A stretch of 64,000 nt of DNA from an uncultured Saprospiraceae bacterium (lineage in GTDB: Bacteria > Bacteroidota > Bacteroidia > Chitinophagales > Saprospiraceae), in NCBI GenBank assembly GCA_937950315.1, contig CALFDU010000060.1, forward strand, positions 1-64,000, in the 5' to 3' direction. The position numbers and the translations under genes are program-made. A model generated the notes under the pieces. The model did not search any database and was not told where the DNA came from. It was given only the letters and a program-made list of their open reading frames with translations. Below, in pieces: positions 21,442 through 29,807 of this stretch. The first letter of the stretch is position 1. Every line of letters begins with the position of its first letter.

Positions 21442-21630
21442 ATGCATGGATTGTTTTTAGGCCTACCAATTAGATTTTATTAGATCTAATCAAACTTGTA
21501 AGACAAATTATAATGACAGTAGGGACTTATAATGAAAATGGCTTGTATCATGGTCTCTTACACAAGAATCTAAAAATAGGTACAAACCGACATGAGAATT
21601 ATCATTAACTTGGTAATTACAAAATATTCC

Positions 21631-23823
21631 ATGTCAAAATATCCGGTTATATTCTACATGCTTTTTTTGACAAGTTCTTTGTCTGGTCAAAATGGAATAT
21701 TGACCGAATCCAATGTGAGTATTGAAACACTGGTCAGGAATTCACTGGTTAAAGGAAATTGCAAAAATGTCAGTAACATACGCTCGATTGGGAATGACTC
21801 CATCAGTATTGGTCGGTTCAGAAACGGTAATTCGGCGATTGGAATTTCTTCTGGGATCATTCTATCTACTGGAGATATTAATCTAGCACAGGGTCCTAAC
21901 AATAGACCTGAATCAGGTTTTGCCTTAAACGCTGCTCCAGGTAATGATGTAGATCTTGATATACCAGCTACCGGTAGTTTGTATGATATAACGGCCATTG
22001 AGTTTGATTTCGTTCCGTTTGGAGACAACGTATCTTTCAATTACGTATTTGCTTCTGAAGAATATTGTGAATTTGTAGGAACTACCTTTAATGACGTTTT
22101 TGGATTTTTTGTAAGTGGTCCAGGAATCAATGGTGATTTTGAAAATGACGCAATTAATGTAGCAACAATCAGTACAACCAATCAAGATGTTAGTATTAAC
22201 AATGTCAATCATTTATTGAATGAGGAATTTTATGTAGATAATGTTGCAAACTTAGATGCTGAAGCTTGTAATATTGATGCTACACCTTTAGTAGAAGATT
22301 TTATAGAATATGATGGGTTAACCGTGCCGCTTAGTGCTTCTTTTTCTGTGATACCTTGCGAAACATATCATATTCGATTGGTTATTGCGGATGTAGGTGA
22401 TCCCATATTGGATTCTGCTGTTTTATTAGAAGCCAATAGCTTTGATTTAGGAGAACAAATAAATCTAACAGTGGATGTTCCTGGTAGTGATGAACCTGTC
22501 GCCTTTGAAGAATGTGTGGATGCCCAATTTGTTTTTTCAAGGAATTCTCTTAGTGATTTGGATGAAGAGATTATTGTAGATTTTAGCATCAGTCAGGATA
22601 GTAGAGCTATAAATGGAATTGACTTTGAAGAAATTCCTTTAAGCATAACCATAGCTCCTGGTGATACAAACTTTGTTTTACCGATTGAAATTATAGAAGA
22701 TGGGGTGGTCGAAGGTCCAGAGAATCTAAAATTGAATATACCTTATGATTGTGATTGTCTAGATCCAGTATTCAACGAACTTATTATCAACGATCCTTTA
22801 GGTCTTTCGGCAAACTTTCAAGAAATATTTGTGTGCGCAAATGAACCGTTTAAAATTACTCCAAACATTATGGGAGGAGTATTACCTTATTCTTACACAT
22901 GGAGTAATGGGAGTGAAGTAGATTCTTTGGAAAATATAGTTAATGAAGACACCCAATTTATTGTTACCGTAACAGACTTTTGTGGGAATTTTAGTGTTGC
23001 AACTTTAGATGTTTTTATTCAATCAACGCCAAGTGCATTGCTAGCAGGTACCTACGATATTTGCACAAGCAGTGAAAATGGAATTCCTGTAGAACTAGAA
23101 GGAAACCCTCCTTGGACATTGGCTTACAGTATAGATGGGATTGAGCAAGAATCAATTATCAATATAGAAACAAGTACGGTTTATATAGATGGATCAAGAG
23201 AAGGAGTTTATACACTTACGGCTTTCAGTGATGCTTATTGTGAAGGTAATGTTACAGGTAGTGCTATTGTCGAAAATGACTTTGTGATCGATTTTGAATT
23301 AACCCAACCGAGTTGTATAAATAGAAAGGATGGTACTATTGAGATTGTCAATATTGATATTCCAACTCCTTACACCTTAAGTTGGAATATTGAGAGTCAG
23401 CAAGATTTGTTATTAAGCAATATTGGAGAAGGTAGCTATGTCTTAAGTATTGAAGACGCCAATGGATGTAGTTTTGAAAAAATCATAGACTTGATTGCGG
23501 TAAGCCAAGATATTGAGGATTGTATTTCGATCTATATTCCAAATGTTTTTAATCCAGGGCTTCAAGGAGTCAATAATGCATTCAGTATTTTCTACGGTAA
23601 TGATAGCGGAATTGTATCTATCAATTCTTTACAAATATTCGATCGTTGGGGATCATTGGTTTTTGAAAAAATAAATTTCTTACCAGAAAGCGGATCTCAA
23701 ATCTGGGATGGCAGATTTAATGATGGTGAATTGAATTCAGGAGTGTATGTTTACGTTTTGTCAATCCAATATGAGAATGGATTGACAAAACAACTGAGTG
23801 GTGATGTAAGTATCATCAAGTAA
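21631..23823 (+). CDS. Choice-of-anchor-L protein with type B (gliding-associated) T9SS domain
   Basis: About 730 residues. The ATG at 21631 gives signal peptide MSKYPVIFYMLFLTSSLSGQ; an in-frame ATG at 21592 would add 13 residues. The N-terminal domain has choice-of-anchor-L features: SSGIILSTGDI, FDFVPFGDNVSFNYVFASEEY and NDVFGFFVSGPGI. A Calx-beta-like segment follows (SQDSRAINGIDFEE, EDGVVEGPENLKLNI), then SprB-like beta modules. The C-terminal ~95 residues (IYIPNVFNPG, LQIFDRWGSLVFE, LNSGVYVYVLSIQYENG, GDVSIIK) are the gliding motility-associated type B sorting domain. It should be cell-surface attached or secreted, with an adhesin-like role. A neighbouring paralogue of this layout is at 54716. 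Confidence 0.88.
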   Translation: MSKYPVIFYMLFLTSSLSGQNGILTESNVSIETLVRNSLVKGNCKNVSNIRSIGNDSISIGRFRNGNSAIGISSGIILSTGDINLAQGPNNRPESGFALNAAPGNDVDLDIPATGSLYDITAIEFDFVPFGDNVSFNYVFASEEYCEFVGTTFNDVFGFFVSGPGINGDFENDAINVATISTTNQDVSINNVNHLLNEEFYVDNVANLDAEACNIDATPLVEDFIEYDGLTVPLSASFSVIPCETYHIRLVIADVGDPILDSAVLLEANSFDLGEQINLTVDVPGSDEPVAFEECVDAQFVFSRNSLSDLDEEIIVDFSISQDSRAINGIDFEEIPLSITIAPGDTNFVLPIEIIEDGVVEGPENLKLNIPYDCDCLDPVFNELIINDPLGLSANFQEIFVCANEPFKITPNIMGGVLPYSYTWSNGSEVDSLENIVNEDTQFIVTVTDFCGNFSVATLDVFIQSTPSALLAGTYDICTSSENGIPVELEGNPPWTLAYSIDGIEQESIINIETSTVYIDGSREGVYTLTAFSDAYCEGNVTGSAIVENDFVIDFELTQPSCINRKDGTIEIVNIDIPTPYTLSWNIESQQDLLLSNIGEGSYVLSIEDANGCSFEKIIDLIAVSQDIEDCISIYIPNVFNPGLQGVNNAFSIFYGNDSGIVSINSLQIFDRWGSLVFEKINFLPESGSQIWDGRFNDGELNSGVYVYVLSIQYENGLTKQLSGDVSIIK

Positions 23824-23842: not shown

Positions 23843-25531
23843 CTAACTTTCACTCCTAAGTCTCAAAGATTCCCCTCCTTGTAATATTAATGCAAACAAG
23901 ACAACGAATAAGGCTCCCAAGGCATTCAACCACAAAAAGGCAATACCAAACCATTCAAACCACCAGAAGCAGATGATTAATATTTCGGATATGATGGCCG
24001 CTATGAAAATTGCATTTGATTTGATATGCTTGATAAAGAAAGCAACCAAAAATACTCCTAGTATGGTTCCATAAAACAAAGACCCTATGATATTTACAAA
24101 CTGAATTAAATTTTCAAATAGTTGGCAGGAAAGAGCAAATGATATCGCAATCACACCCCAGCCAAGCGTCATCATTCTCGATGCATTTAGATAATGGGAA
24201 TCAGTGGCTTTTTGATTGATTCCACGTTTGTATATGTCGACAACCGTTGTAGTAGCTAGTGCATTCAATTCAGAGGCAGTAGAGGACATGGCTGCACATA
24301 AAAATACTGCTAGCAAAAGTCCCACCAATCCTTTGGGGAAGTTGTTGAGAATGAAATTGATGAATACATAATCTTTGTCGTTGGTCTTGGCACCAGGTAG
24401 CGCTTTACCAATCAGCTCTTTTACAGATGTTCGTATTTCTTGTTCTTGTGCCGTATAGCTTCCATACGCATCTTTAAAATTTTGGGAAGGTGTATCTAGA
24501 TTTGCATTGGCTACCAGTTCTTTCTTTATAGTATAAATAGAATTTAATTGATCCTCGTATCCAATCAATTCATCAGCATACTCTGTCGATCTGACATCCT
24601 CTAAGGTTTTTGTGTTGAAGAAAGCCGGGGAAGGATTGAATTGATAAAAAACAAAAACCATTACTCCTGTCAATAAAATGAAAAATTGCATTGGTACTTT
24701 AAGAAAACCATTGAAGATTAAACCCCATTGGCTTTCTTTCTTGTTTTTACCGGAAAGGTATCGCTGTACTTGTGATTGGTCTGTACCAAAATAGGACAAC
24801 ATTAAGAATGTACCACCTAAGATTCCAGTCCAAACCGTATACTTATTGTTGAGATCAAAACTGAAATCAAGGATATTCATTTTGTTGCCAGCCGCAGCCA
24901 CTTTCAAACTTTCCATAAAACCGATCCCTGTGGGCATTTTATCCAAAATCAAATAGAAAGCAATAAACATCCCAAGGAAGATGATTGCCATCTGGTATTT
25001 CTGTGTTACATTCACGGCCTTAGTTCCTCCGATCATAGTGTAAAAAATAACCAAGATTCCAATTATAATAATCAGCAGATCAAGATTCCAGCCTAATACG
25101 GTTGATAAAACAATAGCAGGAGCAAATATCGTAATACCTGCAGCCAATCCTCTCTGAATCAAAAAGAGCAAGGAGGTAAGAAATCGAGTTTTATAATCAA
25201 ACCTTGATTCTAAAAACTCGTAGGCAGTATAGACTTTTAGTTTAGAGTAAAGCGGTATGAAAAACAAACAAATGATTACCATCGCTATAGGTAATCCAAA
25301 GTAGAATTGAACAAAACCCATTCCATCATGGAAGGCTTGACCTGGGGTAGATAGGAACGTTATAGCCGAAGCTTGCGTAGCCATTACCGATAGTCCCACA
25401 GTCCACCATCTAGCTTCTCGGTCGCCAACTAAAAAACTGTCCAAGCTTTTTCTTTTGCGAGTTACCCATGAACCATAGCCAACGATTAGAAATAGGGTAG
25501 TACTTAATACAATCCAATCTATAGTAGGCAT
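23843..25531 (-). CDS. Sodium:solute symporter family protein
   Basis: 562-residue inner-membrane protein with about 13 helices of the SSS fold. Typical segments are DSFLVGDREARWWTVGLSVMATQASAITFLSTPGQAF, LESRFDYKTRFLTSLLFLIQRG, YTMIGGTKAVNVTQKYQM and YFGTDQSQVQRYLSGKNKKESQWG. An extra ~80-residue charged loop lies between the helix at about 295 and the one at about 400. The substrate cannot be read. It is the last gene of a tight operon: its ATG directly follows the TAG of a 34-codon gene, which overlaps a PIG-L deacetylase gene. Sodium-driven uptake of a product of that enzyme is an inference. Confidence 0.88.
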   Translation of the reverse strand: MPTIDWIVLSTTLFLIVGYGSWVTRKRKSLDSFLVGDREARWWTVGLSVMATQASAITFLSTPGQAFHDGMGFVQFYFGLPIAMVIICLFFIPLYSKLKVYTAYEFLESRFDYKTRFLTSLLFLIQRGLAAGITIFAPAIVLSTVLGWNLDLLIIIIGILVIFYTMIGGTKAVNVTQKYQMAIIFLGMFIAFYLILDKMPTGIGFMESLKVAAAGNKMNILDFSFDLNNKYTVWTGILGGTFLMLSYFGTDQSQVQRYLSGKNKKESQWGLIFNGFLKVPMQFFILLTGVMVFVFYQFNPSPAFFNTKTLEDVRSTEYADELIGYEDQLNSIYTIKKELVANANLDTPSQNFKDAYGSYTAQEQEIRTSVKELIGKALPGAKTNDKDYVFINFILNNFPKGLVGLLLAVFLCAAMSSTASELNALATTTVVDIYKRGINQKATDSHYLNASRMMTLGWGVIAISFALSCQLFENLIQFVNIIGSLFYGTILGVFLVAFFIKHIKSNAIFIAAIISEILIICFWWFEWFGIAFLWLNALGALFVVLFALILQGGESLRLRSES

Positions 25532-25636
25532 CTAATTCAGGCTTTTCATGAGGAAGTAACAAAACAAAATGAATAGAGCATTGAAGGCAATCATAAAGAA
25601 ATATATTTTGTAATTATTCTCTTTTTGATTTTCCAT
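25532..25636 (-). CDS. 34-residue single-helix membrane peptide
   Basis: ATG to TAG frame on the minus strand, 34 residues. It begins MENQKENNYK, then one hydrophobic helix rich in Phe, Ile and Leu (IYFFMIAFNALFILFCYFLM), and ends in KSLN. Its ATG overlaps the TAA of the upstream deacetylase gene in the sequence TAATG. Its TAG is directly followed by the ATG of the symporter (TAGATG). Both junctions are typical of translational coupling, which supports it as a real gene. A short acidic/basic N-terminus with one helix suits a small subunit or regulator of the symporter, as known for other small membrane proteins. No function is known. Confidence 0.75.
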   Translation of the reverse strand: MENQKENNYKIYFFMIAFNALFILFCYFLMKSLN

Positions 25637-28140
25637 TAGTTCTCTTCACTTAAGGCTAGCATGTTGGCAAAAATTCTATACGCACCAGGTACTCCAGCCG
25701 GTAATTGTCTGAACCAAGAAAAGTTGGAGTAAACAAAATGTCCTTTTCCATATTCTGCAATCAACATACCGCCTTCACTTGGATCTTCTCCTTTGTCATT
25801 GCAAGAAATAATGGTTTCATAATTATCGTCCCATTCACTGGCAAAGTACAAGCCACGTTCTTGAATCCAATTATCAAAATCGTCTTGCGATATTTTGTTT
25901 GGATGGTTTAGCACTTTATGATCTGGATTAACAATACGCATCTCCGCATCTTCCTGAGATACTCTAAATCGACCTAAGCTCACGGGGTAAGGCCCAAAGT
26001 CTTTTGATTTAAGTCGTCTTGAAGTATTGTATTGTGTGATGAATGTACCTCCTGCTTCTACATATGCAATCAAATTATCTTGGTACACATCGATATCTTC
26101 CAAGGTATTCAATGCTCTAATTCCTAATACAACAGCATCATACTTGGCAAGTGCTTTTGGTTCTGTTGCACTCAATTCGATTTCTTCCACTTCATAACCA
26201 ATATATCTTAGGCATTCTGGCACTTTATCTCCAGCTCCCATGATGTATCCAATTTTATTTCCAGCTGTTTCAATGTTGATTTTAGCAACCTTTGCTTCTT
26301 CTGGTCTCAGAACTGATTGAGCAGGTATGTGGTCGTATTCAATTTCTATCAGGTCATTACTAAAGCCTCTTCCGTTAAAAGTAGCTGTCGGTTTTAGACT
26401 TCCGATTGATTGACCTTTGGGGGGAGTTACGTTAAATTTAATCTTTTGTATTGCGTCTTTGGTTACAAGGTTGTAATCTATTGAAGTCGGGGAAACCAGC
26501 CAACCATCTGGCGCATCTAAACGTAACTTACCAGATACATTGTTGGTGCCAGCTTGCACAGTAACTTCTACTTCCTTTGAGTCATTGCTAGGGAAAATGA
26601 TTACGTCTTCTTCAATTGAAACAAATACCGGATCAGTAACTTCAAACGGTTTGTAAATTTCACCCTTACTTGGATCAGTAAAGCGATAAACAACATCTTT
26701 ATTGAAATCAATGTCAGTCCCTAAAATATCAACTATAAATTCTGCAGAAAAACTCCTAGGCGTTTCCGGCTTGCCGATCATGTCTTTGTCCTTCACTGCA
26801 AACATACCCATACTGCCTTTGTTCTTTAACCAATAGTGAGACGAGTTAGCAGCATTGGAAGGAATTTGAAATTCCAAATATTCTTCTAGTGTAATATTGT
26901 TGTCTAAAGCTTTAGAGCCACCACCCAAGCTTTCACCTGAGTTAAGCGTTACTGACTTTAGATTCATAGGTACTGAACTTCGATTGACTGCTTCAATTTT
27001 AACTTCTATAGAATCGCCTACAACTACTCTATGAGCATTGGCACTTGCCTCAAGATATAATCCTGAACAAGCAGCTATGATATCCTTAATCTCTTCAATT
27101 TTTATAGACTTCCAATGCCCAGGTCTTAACTGTTCGATTTTTTTGTATATCTCAACCAACTGTGATACATTTTCATGAGGGTTCACAAAGTTGAATGATG
27201 ATAATAATTGATCCACCATGGTTCCTATTTCTGCTCCACCTTCAACCCTTGACCAAGTTGTATTTATTCCTTCAAATGGATCAGCTTTGGTTTCTGGCAT
27301 CTCTCCATTCAATAACTCCAAGTATTCCGTATATGATCCTCTTGTTCCAGAAGATCCGAAACCTTGACAAGCATGTTTACTTCTAGCTTCTGCAGCAATT
27401 TCTGTATTTGATTTTCCAAGTAAAGGATAGTAGGCGCCTATGTCCATAGACATCAAGTTTGTTTTATCCGCTTCCGCAAATTTTTCACGACTGCCATAAA
27501 ACCACCATGAGGTGTTGAAGAACAATCTTTGCGCCGCCCAAGGTTGAATACCTTCAGCAAATTGTTCTGGGTAGGCAGATCTACTGTTTACCATATCAAA
27601 AGCTTCTACTGAAAGCATCGCAGACGAAGTATGATGTCCATGTGTTCTTCCAGGTGTTCTATGATCAAATCTATTGATGATGATATCTGGTTTAAACTTT
27701 CTTATAACTCGCACGACGTCCGCAAGAACTTCATCTTTGTTCCATATGGCCAAAGTTTCATCAGGGTGTTTGCTATATCCAAAATCGATGGCTCTACTAA
27801 AAAACTGCTGTCCTCCATCTACCGATCTAGCCATCTGCAATTCTTGTGTCCTTAAAACACCTAATAACTCTTGAATTTCTGTTCCAATCAAATTTTGACC
27901 TCCATCGCCTCGAGTAAGCGATAAATAAGCAGTTCTTGCTTTTAAATCATTGGATAAGTAGGAGATTAATCTTGTGTTTTCATCATCCGGATGCGCTGCC
28001 ACATACAGAGCAGTTCCTAAGAAATTTAGTTTTTCTACAGCATGATAAATCTCGGCCGAAGTATAAACATTTGGTTTTTGACCACAAATACTGCAAATAA
28101 AAGCCAATTGTAATAAAATGGATAACAGAATTTTCGACAT
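25636..28140 (-). CDS. Secreted PIG-L family deacetylase
   Basis: 834 residues with a signal peptide (cleavage near CSICGQ, residue 21). The LmbE/PIG-L catalytic domain occupies about 35-260: AAHPDDENTRLISYL with the zinc-binding HPDD, then RTAYLSLTRGDGGQN, IGTEIQELLGVLRTQELQMA and RTHGHHTSSAM with the second metal-binding histidines. The middle is a beta-sandwich region (VEVTVQAGTNNVSGKLRLDAP). The last ~215 residues resemble a glutamine-amidotransferase-like fold (YIMGAGDKVPECLRYIGYEV, YVEAGGTFITQYN). PIG-L enzymes remove acetyl groups from N-acetylglucosamine-type sugars. It is the first gene of the operon with the 34-residue peptide and the symporter. Confidence 0.87.
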   Translation of the reverse strand: MSKILLSILLQLAFICSICGQKPNVYTSAEIYHAVEKLNFLGTALYVAAHPDDENTRLISYLSNDLKARTAYLSLTRGDGGQNLIGTEIQELLGVLRTQELQMARSVDGGQQFFSRAIDFGYSKHPDETLAIWNKDEVLADVVRVIRKFKPDIIINRFDHRTPGRTHGHHTSSAMLSVEAFDMVNSRSAYPEQFAEGIQPWAAQRLFFNTSWWFYGSREKFAEADKTNLMSMDIGAYYPLLGKSNTEIAAEARSKHACQGFGSSGTRGSYTEYLELLNGEMPETKADPFEGINTTWSRVEGGAEIGTMVDQLLSSFNFVNPHENVSQLVEIYKKIEQLRPGHWKSIKIEEIKDIIAACSGLYLEASANAHRVVVGDSIEVKIEAVNRSSVPMNLKSVTLNSGESLGGGSKALDNNITLEEYLEFQIPSNAANSSHYWLKNKGSMGMFAVKDKDMIGKPETPRSFSAEFIVDILGTDIDFNKDVVYRFTDPSKGEIYKPFEVTDPVFVSIEEDVIIFPSNDSKEVEVTVQAGTNNVSGKLRLDAPDGWLVSPTSIDYNLVTKDAIQKIKFNVTPPKGQSIGSLKPTATFNGRGFSNDLIEIEYDHIPAQSVLRPEEAKVAKINIETAGNKIGYIMGAGDKVPECLRYIGYEVEEIELSATEPKALAKYDAVVLGIRALNTLEDIDVYQDNLIAYVEAGGTFITQYNTSRRLKSKDFGPYPVSLGRFRVSQEDAEMRIVNPDHKVLNHPNKISQDDFDNWIQERGLYFASEWDDNYETIISCNDKGEDPSEGGMLIAEYGKGHFVYSNFSWFRQLPAGVPGAYRIFANMLALSEEN

Positions 28141-28241: not shown

Positions 28242-29807
28242 ATGTACAGAATCGCAGTTCTTTTTCTAACATTATTTTTGACTATAAATGAAACTGTTGC
28301 TCAGACGGACTTCACCTGGAGCGAAGATATAGCTTGCATCATTTATTCTCATTGTACTACTTGTCATAATAGCAATGGAGTGGCTCCTTTTGCCCTTGAA
28401 TCATATGATGATGTTGTCACATTTAAAGATAATATTTTGCTGCAAGTAACCAATAGAAGCATGCCACCTTGGCCAGCCCAAAGTCCTTTTGGTTTGCAAG
28501 GAGACAATTCACTTTCAGATGAAGAAATAAATGCAATATCGGAATGGGTGATAAATGAAACGCCTATGGGTGATATAGCCAATGAACCAACGGTTCCGGT
28601 TTTTGACACGGATATAGTCATACAAGATCCAGACTTAATCATTGAAATACCAGAATTTACGGTACCAAATCTGTCAGACAATGATCTTTATAAATGTTTT
28701 GTTTTCCCAATGAATTTTGGAGAAGATATTTATGTCACTGGCATCGAAGTAGTTCCTGGAAATAAAAGAGCCGTACACCATGTTTTGCTCTACGAAGACG
28801 ATTCTAATATTCCAATAAGCTTGGATAATGCGGATCCGGAGATTGGTTATCAGTGCTTTGGTGGGATTGGATCCAACAATGCTACACTCGTAGGGGGATG
28901 GGCTCCAGGAGGAGATCCTCAGTTTATGCCAGAAGGAATGGGTATTAGAATTTCAGCCAATACTAATTTGGTGGCTCAAGTACATTATCCTTCCTATGCT
29001 GTAGGCGAAGTTGATCAAACCGACATTAGAATCAAGTATACCACTGCCAATCAAAGAAATTTATCTGTTTCGCCAGTTTTAAATCATTTCACAAGTATGA
29101 TCGATGGGCCATTGATCATTCAACCCAATGATGTAAGGACATTCAATCAGGTTTGGACAGTTCCTACAAAAATGACCATTACTGGTGTAGCACCACATGC
29201 GCACTTGATATGTACTTCAATGAAGTCTTGGGCAGAGACGCCATCAGGCGAAATTATTGACCTTGTAGATATTCCAAATTGGGACTTTGATTGGCAAAAA
29301 TTCTATGGATATAATCGTCCAGTTGTACTTGAACAAGGAACTAGAATATTTGGGCGAGCAACATACGATAATACAGTCAACAACCATCACAATCCAAATT
29401 TTCCTCCTCAATTAATTACGTTAGGAGAAGATACAGATGAAGAAATGATGGTTTTCTTTTATACCATGACATTTTATCAACCAGGAGATGAAAATTTGGT
29501 TTTTGCTGAGCACAATCATGCAGGTCATGTAGAAGATTGTGGGTTTGCGCTGACAGATGTGGATGAACAATTGATATCATCTAAGATACATTTACATCCA
29601 AATCCAGTATCAAAGACCTTGTATATTGACAGCGAATTATCAGTAACTAATATTATAGTTTTTAACTTGCTTGGTCATAAAGTGATAGATGTAAGCGGGG
29701 GAGAGATAACTGCCGTAGATACTTCAGAATTAGCGCCTGGCACTTATTCTATTCAGATTCGATCAGAAGGATTAATCACCAGTCAGTTGTTTGTTGTAGA
29801 GAGGTAG
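28242..29807 (+). CDS. Cytochrome c plus copper-monooxygenase-like protein with T9SS type A domain
   Basis: 521 residues with signal peptide (cleavage after VAQ, residue 21). A c-type haem site CTTCH at residues 38-42 is followed by a small helical domain with a MPPWP motif likely supplying the Met ligand. The next ~330 residues match the copper type II monooxygenase fold: RAVHHVLLYED, GGWAPGGDPQFMPEGMGI, AQVHYP, GVAPHAHLICTSMKSWA and MMVFFYTMTFYQPG. The HH, HYP and HAH motifs are candidate copper ligands. The final ~75 residues are a T9SS type A sorting domain. It may be a redox enzyme or a sensor at the surface. It is divergent from the PIG-L operon. Confidence 0.82.
   Translation: MYRIAVLFLTLFLTINETVAQTDFTWSEDIACIIYSHCTTCHNSNGVAPFALESYDDVVTFKDNILLQVTNRSMPPWPAQSPFGLQGDNSLSDEEINAISEWVINETPMGDIANEPTVPVFDTDIVIQDPDLIIEIPEFTVPNLSDNDLYKCFVFPMNFGEDIYVTGIEVVPGNKRAVHHVLLYEDDSNIPISLDNADPEIGYQCFGGIGSNNATLVGGWAPGGDPQFMPEGMGIRISANTNLVAQVHYPSYAVGEVDQTDIRIKYTTANQRNLSVSPVLNHFTSMIDGPLIIQPNDVRTFNQVWTVPTKMTITGVAPHAHLICTSMKSWAETPSGEIIDLVDIPNWDFDWQKFYGYNRPVVLEQGTRIFGRATYDNTVNNHHNPNFPPQLITLGEDTDEEMMVFFYTMTFYQPGDENLVFAEHNHAGHVEDCGFALTDVDEQLISSKIHLHPNPVSKTLYIDSELSVTNIIVFNLLGHKVIDVSGGEITAVDTSELAPGTYSIQIRSEGLITSQLFVVER

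Follow-up and report, generated by a model that had tools for sequence, protein, structure and literature searches.

The window, a 64,000-nucleotide stretch of contig CALFDU010000060.1 from an uncultured Saprospiraceae bacterium, contains a 34-codon frame between two large genes on the minus strand. The three are read in one direction, in the order PIG-L gene, 34-codon frame and symporter gene, and the locus comprises the following features.

25636..28140, minus strand: PIG-L family de-N-acetylase gene, 834 aa (PF02585), a frequent but optional upstream neighbour

25634..25638, minus strand: TAATG junction read from the sequence, in which the PIG-L stop TAA and the small-gene ATG overlap by one base (base 25636)

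25532..25636, minus strand: putative small one-helix membrane protein gene, 34 codons; frame read from the sequence: MENQKENNYKIYFFMIAFNALFILFCYFLMKSLN

25529..25534, minus strand: TAGATG junction read from the sequence, with the small-gene TAG directly before the symporter ATG, in the same frame

23843..25531, minus strand: symporter gene, sodium:solute symporter (SSS/SLC5 fold), 562 aa (PF00474, TIGR00813, fold matches)

An earlier note on this DNA had placed a 34-codon ATG frame at 25532-25636, flanked by the TAATG and TAGATG junctions. The coordinates are correct and both junctions are seen in the sequence; the note gave no strand, which is the minus strand. The open reading frame exists on the minus strand; the plus-strand reading of the same interval contains a stop. 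In profile searches, the symporter matched PF00474 (SSF, E 3.8e-40) and TIGR00813 (E 2.9e-72), and its sodium coupling is presumed from the family. The upstream protein matched PF02585 (E 1.4e-13, 51.9 bits against a cut-off of 28.2); by eye its start resembles a signal peptide, and it also holds an NPCBM-associated stretch that lies below the Pfam cut-off. Two plus-strand genes flank the group. At 28242-29807, divergent from the PIG-L gene, lie copper type II ascorbate-dependent monooxygenase domains with a type IX secretion sorting tail, and at 21592-23823, convergent with the symporter, a large protein with a CHU_C type IX secretion domain and a Calx-beta domain.

Conservation of the small frame was examined at symporter orthologs from 100 related genomes, which gave 66 junctions that include the symporter start, excluding three duplicate loci (L016, L019 and L025) and one fragment (L063). 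A small-protein profile, seeded with eight sequences and then iterated, detected a matching one-helix frame in 58 of these 66 junctions, training set included; since sequences of these relatives went into training the profile, the figure is partly circular. The 58 frames encode 30-51 aa with the starts as chosen. The closest relative (L002) has an intact 33-codon frame with the symporter ATG directly after it. By the profile, the remaining eight junctions (L011, L052, L055, L056, L058, L059, L061 and L066) hold no matching frame. The earlier note had named the absence of a comparable intact frame in relatives as the outcome that would speak against the gene; most loci have one, and these eight do not. 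At L056 (genome G044), where no family member occurs, a 137-aa frame with hydrophobic final residues ends 4 bases into the symporter gene and is possibly a replacement.

Four checks address the circularity: a search of 395 genomes, 80 named loci, the junctions of genomes with the symporter only, and a helix criterion. In the symporter search of named genomes, the best 80 loci all carried the small frame at the ortholog junction, and none of them had been used in training; they span Tenacibaculum, Aquimarina, Aequorivita, Lutibacter, Zunongwangia, Olleya, two Saprospiraceae MAGs and others. At 27 loci of other SSS genes, representing 23 distinct confirmed SSS starts, no small-protein profile match was better than E 0.16. 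The helix criterion, applied to the same 23 genes, returned a single match, which is the known DUF4212 small subunit; it recovers 75 of the 80 named loci and therefore misses some true ones. The spacing between the small-frame stop and the symporter start is -12 to +8 bases in 206 of 244 loci. A 4-base overlap is the commonest arrangement (55 loci), and the window's own offset of 0, with the stop abutting the ATG, recurs in 19. The 252-locus set excludes four further duplicates and 29 loci, namely the paralog set plus two that hold the symporter of the window itself; a further 80 loci come from genomes selected for having an adjacent profile match, and they therefore add sequences and not an independent count. 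By these comparisons, the 34-codon frame behaves as a protein-coding gene would.

The pattern of substitution points the same way. In 53 disjoint pairs drawn from 138 sequences at a protein identity of at least 55%, a choice that favours conserved pairs, the pN/pS of the small frame was 0.23; the control, the other two frames of those pairs, gave 0.99 and 1.54. The synonymous-rich substitution that the earlier note had named as support is thus present, and as judged from sequence the small frame is under purifying selection. In an alignment of 239 sequences, the predicted helix opens with W (97%, weighted) and Y (98%), followed at helical spacing by V/L, L/I, N/L/H, I, F, Y, T/M and F/Y. The periodicity of conservation is strongest at 100 degrees per residue (p 0.00015 relative to column permutation), with the conserved face at window positions 8, 12, 15/16, 19, 23, 26/27, 30 and 33; one face is therefore constrained, as expected for a helix packing on another protein. 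Across the same sequences, lysine and arginine average 2.62 on the N-terminal flank versus 0.54 on the C-terminal flank, the N-terminal flank being the richer in 198 of 239 sequences and the poorer in 4, with equal numbers in 37, and the predicted topology is therefore N-in/C-out. In the helix of the window, N8 replaces the near-invariant W, and the window's own genus is divergent.

Since the small gene sits between two larger ones, we asked which of them it accompanies. Where a PIG-L gene lies within 450 bases upstream, 103 of 104 loci carry the small gene; where none does, 33 of 40 still carry it, two loci with too little upstream sequence being left uncounted. A PIG-L gene lies within that distance in 67 of 79 named loci, and the distance between it and the small gene varies widely. 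At 11 Tenacibaculum loci, no PIG-L match precedes the symporter within the DNA examined, and all 11 keep the small gene. The small gene is thus mostly kept with or without PIG-L and therefore follows the symporter, not the deacetylase. Of the three-part unit proposed by the earlier note, the conserved one-helix protein beside a symporter stands, but the fixed link to the deacetylase is not supported, given the 33 loci that keep the small gene without it.

In part of genus g151, the small gene and the symporter are separated by a longer distance. In four of its genomes (G123, G134, G150 and G196), no small gene precedes the symporter (L310-L313), and a conserved copy lies about 15 kb away (14.6-15.3 kb); three of these copies were read (L309, L317 and L318, from G123, G134 and G150), and that of G196 is known by place only. 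In four other genomes of the genus (G161, G165, G259 and G271), the small gene is adjacent to the symporter. At L309, L317 and L318, the distant small gene converges on a large transporter gene of the opposite strand, SLC13-like by eye. A small gene kept at such a distance is therefore no cis leader. The earlier note had also read the two junctions as signs of coupled translation at a fixed stoichiometry: the tight stop/start spacing fits coupling, but the g151 arrangement indicates that coupling is not obligatory, and a fixed stoichiometry of the small protein and the symporter is presumptive.

Across 395 Bacteroidota genomes, the small-protein profile matched in 128 and a symporter ortholog (E<=1e-100) was found in 143, with both in 124, the symporter only in 19 and the profile only in 4. 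Five of the 124 both-positive genomes had been in training (G000, G011, G032, G079 and G092). In 119 of the 124, the small gene and the symporter are on the same strand, 0-95 bases apart; in G370 the profile match lies 108 kb from the symporter. The profile therefore undercounts: in 15 of the 19 symporter-only genomes, the junction holds a one-helix frame of the expected size whose end falls -49 to +4 bases from where the symporter starts. Four of the 143 orthologs have neither a profile match nor a junction helix (genomes G209, G232, G240 and G258; loci L291, L293, L294 and L296). The first three belong to genus g152 (L291, L293 and L294) and carry the symporter with no one-helix frame before it. 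In G124, a fourth g152 genome, a PIG-L gene and the small gene lie beside a shortened symporter (L316, G124:C19, about 627-932). That symporter matches the first 22 residues and then at once residues 496-538, through decay or an assembly fault. The pair is therefore broken both ways within this genus, which shows that it is not indispensable everywhere. The remaining profile-only genomes (G298, G372 and G454) have weak matches (E 0.001-0.007) inside longer frames. A search of 72,556 plasmid records gave no symporter match at E<=1e-60.

To place the small helix relative to the transporter, we turned to structure prediction. The nearest solved structures to the symporter by sequence are NIS, the multivitamin transporter, SiaT and SMCT1. 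Two read-through chains were modelled with AlphaFold2, one from the window and one from Aquimarina, in which the stop of the small gene is read through into the symporter in the same frame; the Aquimarina chain includes a 24-codon spacer. In both, the small peptide forms a separate helix, and the models show a helix and no contact. The pLDDT of the helix block is 85-90 in the Aquimarina chain versus 58-65 in the window chain. By Foldseek, SiaT is the best structural match to the window chain, and the Aquimarina chain superposes on SiaT with Z 41.1 over 465 residues at an rmsd of 2.5. The fold matches to SiaT, SMCT1, NIS and SGLT, which span the symporter part only, give the symporter a LeuT-type fold. 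By our count, the predicted symporter helices run from TM0 to TM12 (13 TM), with no equivalent of TM13. The alignment of the Aquimarina chain with SGLT1/2 ends at SGLT residues 548-552, and the clade therefore seems to lack TM13, given the helix numbering assumed for SGLT and the position assumed there for TM13. Coevolution was tried as a route to a docking site: in mean-field DCA (239 paired sequences, Neff 142, 579 columns) the couplings were scattered, and the strongest pairs agreed in membrane depth little better than random ones (p 0.056-0.191); no docking site is therefore claimed. The titles of solved entries of related transporters (SiaT, NIS) name no such helix.

Small membrane proteins encoded beside SSS genes include DUF485 (YjcH with ActP), DUF997 (YhdT with PanF) and DUF3311 (beside MctP-type symporters), all of them longer and with about two helices. 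None of these models appears in the complete match list of 58 members at E<=1, and no Pfam or NCBIfam model covers the small protein in the complete match lists at that threshold. The weak family matches (best E 0.0089 in Pfam and 0.004 in NCBIfam, at most 3 of 58 members per family) were taken as chance. DUF4212/TIGR03647 is likewise a small membrane protein gene directly upstream of an SSS symporter, but its members have about 80 aa and two transmembrane helices (83 aa and, by eye, two hydrophobic stretches in the protein compared here), whereas the peptide here has 34 aa and one hydrophobic stretch. PF13937 and TIGR03647 are absent from the complete match lists of the 58 members at E<=1. 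A homology to DUF4212, suggested by the second helix of that family, which is alike by eye, was rejected (hhalign probability 2.8%). The window's own genome encodes such a DUF4212/TIGR03647 protein of 83 aa (L182, G000:C114, 1394-1645, minus strand), whose gene ends one base before another SSS gene; the symporter linked to it belongs to another clade (22% identity over residues 3-210), and the two provide a natural comparison pair in the same cell.

Single-helix partners are known from other transporters. KdpF is a one-helix subunit whose partner is a P-type ATPase. AcrZ, according to PMC10710835, is a 49-aa protein with one short helix bound to a large transporter. Unlike AcrZ, which goes with an RND pump, and KdpF, the peptide described here has an SSS symporter as its putative partner. 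Another parallel is MAP17 (PDZK1IP1), which PMC10803289 describes as a single-helix auxiliary subunit of human SGLT2/SGLT1 that contacts TM13 of SGLT2. Like MAP17, the peptide is a single transmembrane helix accompanying an SLC5-fold symporter, here by genome position only; unlike the SGLT2 case, the symporter clade seems to lack the TM13 on which MAP17 sits. Neither this peptide nor any one-helix partner of a bacterial SSS symporter was the subject of a paper in the open-access literature searched. The kind of protein is thus already known (DUF4212/TIGR03647; MAP17, AcrZ), and what appears to be new is a widely conserved single-helix partner of a bacterial SSS symporter that bears no family name.

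Taken together, the peptide is in our view probably an accessory subunit, made of a single helix, that belongs to one clade of SSS symporters in Bacteroidota. Its frame is kept as a protein together with that symporter clade. From the junctions, the peptide would be made along with the symporter, often by coupled re-initiation; from its topology and conserved face, it would insert N-in/C-out and pack on a membrane partner, most simply the symporter; and by analogy with MAP17 on SGLT2, it may stabilise or tune the transporter through its fold, stability or turnover. The accessory role for the transporter that the earlier note had suggested is the most likely reading; translation, physical binding, a helping role and a 1:1 stoichiometry are inferred. 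Against an accessory subunit stand the eight relatives' junctions without the frame, the broken pair in g152 and the distant copy in G370, as well as N8 in place of W in the window, the low helix confidence of the window chain, the SiaT and NIS titles without a helix and the lack of a coevolving site.

The same evidence bears on other readings. A regulatory peptide, which would inhibit or tune the symporter under some condition without being a standing subunit, as AcrZ and MntS do on other transporters, would share the conserved helix face, and small transporter regulators are described in PMC10710835; we nevertheless think it unlikely, since in most loci the two genes share a strand and meet at a tight junction, which points to constant joint production and no separate signal. 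A leader or coupling peptide, a short frame that only sets symporter translation in cis and whose product is functionless, would account for the tight junctions, the prevalence of the 4-base overlap and the stop that abuts the ATG in the window. Selection on the amino acids, the conserved face and topology and the copies some 15 kb away in four g151 genomes make it very unlikely.

The peptide could instead belong to PIG-L, or to an envelope complex of both neighbours, for example as an anchor bringing the deacetylase to the transporter. The frequency of PIG-L just upstream in the named loci and its overlap with the small gene in the window would suit such a role, which we regard as highly improbable because most loci without a nearby PIG-L keep the small gene and the peptide lacks any extended segment beyond the membrane. 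Least probable of these readings is that the operon merely carries along a small membrane protein with no relation to its neighbours, or a toxin-like peptide. Hydrophobic peptides of such size can be toxic or stress linked, DinQ and TimP being examples, and the small gene and an intact symporter never occur together in the four g152 genomes examined; however, 124 of the 128 profile-positive genomes carry a symporter ortholog, and the other four are G124, with its shortened symporter, and the three weak matches in longer frames.

As for the substrate, PIG-L enzymes remove N-acetyl groups from sugar compounds. The symporter might take up an amino-sugar or related sugar, perhaps one deacetylated by PIG-L before uptake; an amino-sugar or cyclitol-like substrate would fit. 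A GFO/IDH/MocA-type oxidoreductase gene follows the symporter in 27 of 81 clustered loci (the 80 named loci and the window), among them L137 (7680-8657, plus strand), and is absent in the window; the one representative tested matched PF01408. Another weak hint, here of amino sugars, is a gene of the glucosamine-6-phosphate isomerase family (PF01182) at L310 (G123:C17:8500-9700), on the plus strand at 602-1201 and divergent from the symporter.

SSS/SLC5 symporters are mostly regarded as one-protein transporters, although human SGLT2 depends on a partner with one helix. The accessory subunit proposed here could also be a bacterial counterpart of MAP17, its one helix standing in trans where a 13-TM SLC5-fold symporter lacks the TM13 scaffold helix; we hold this to be quite unlikely. 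If true, scaffold subunits of one helix would be an old answer, reached repeatedly in this transporter fold and widely retained in Bacteroidota. The small gene, which gene finders with a length cut-off could miss, occurs by the profile in about a third of the sampled Bacteroidota (128 of 395), and such transporters may be studied without a subunit; the pair offers a simple bacterial system for asking what such helices do.
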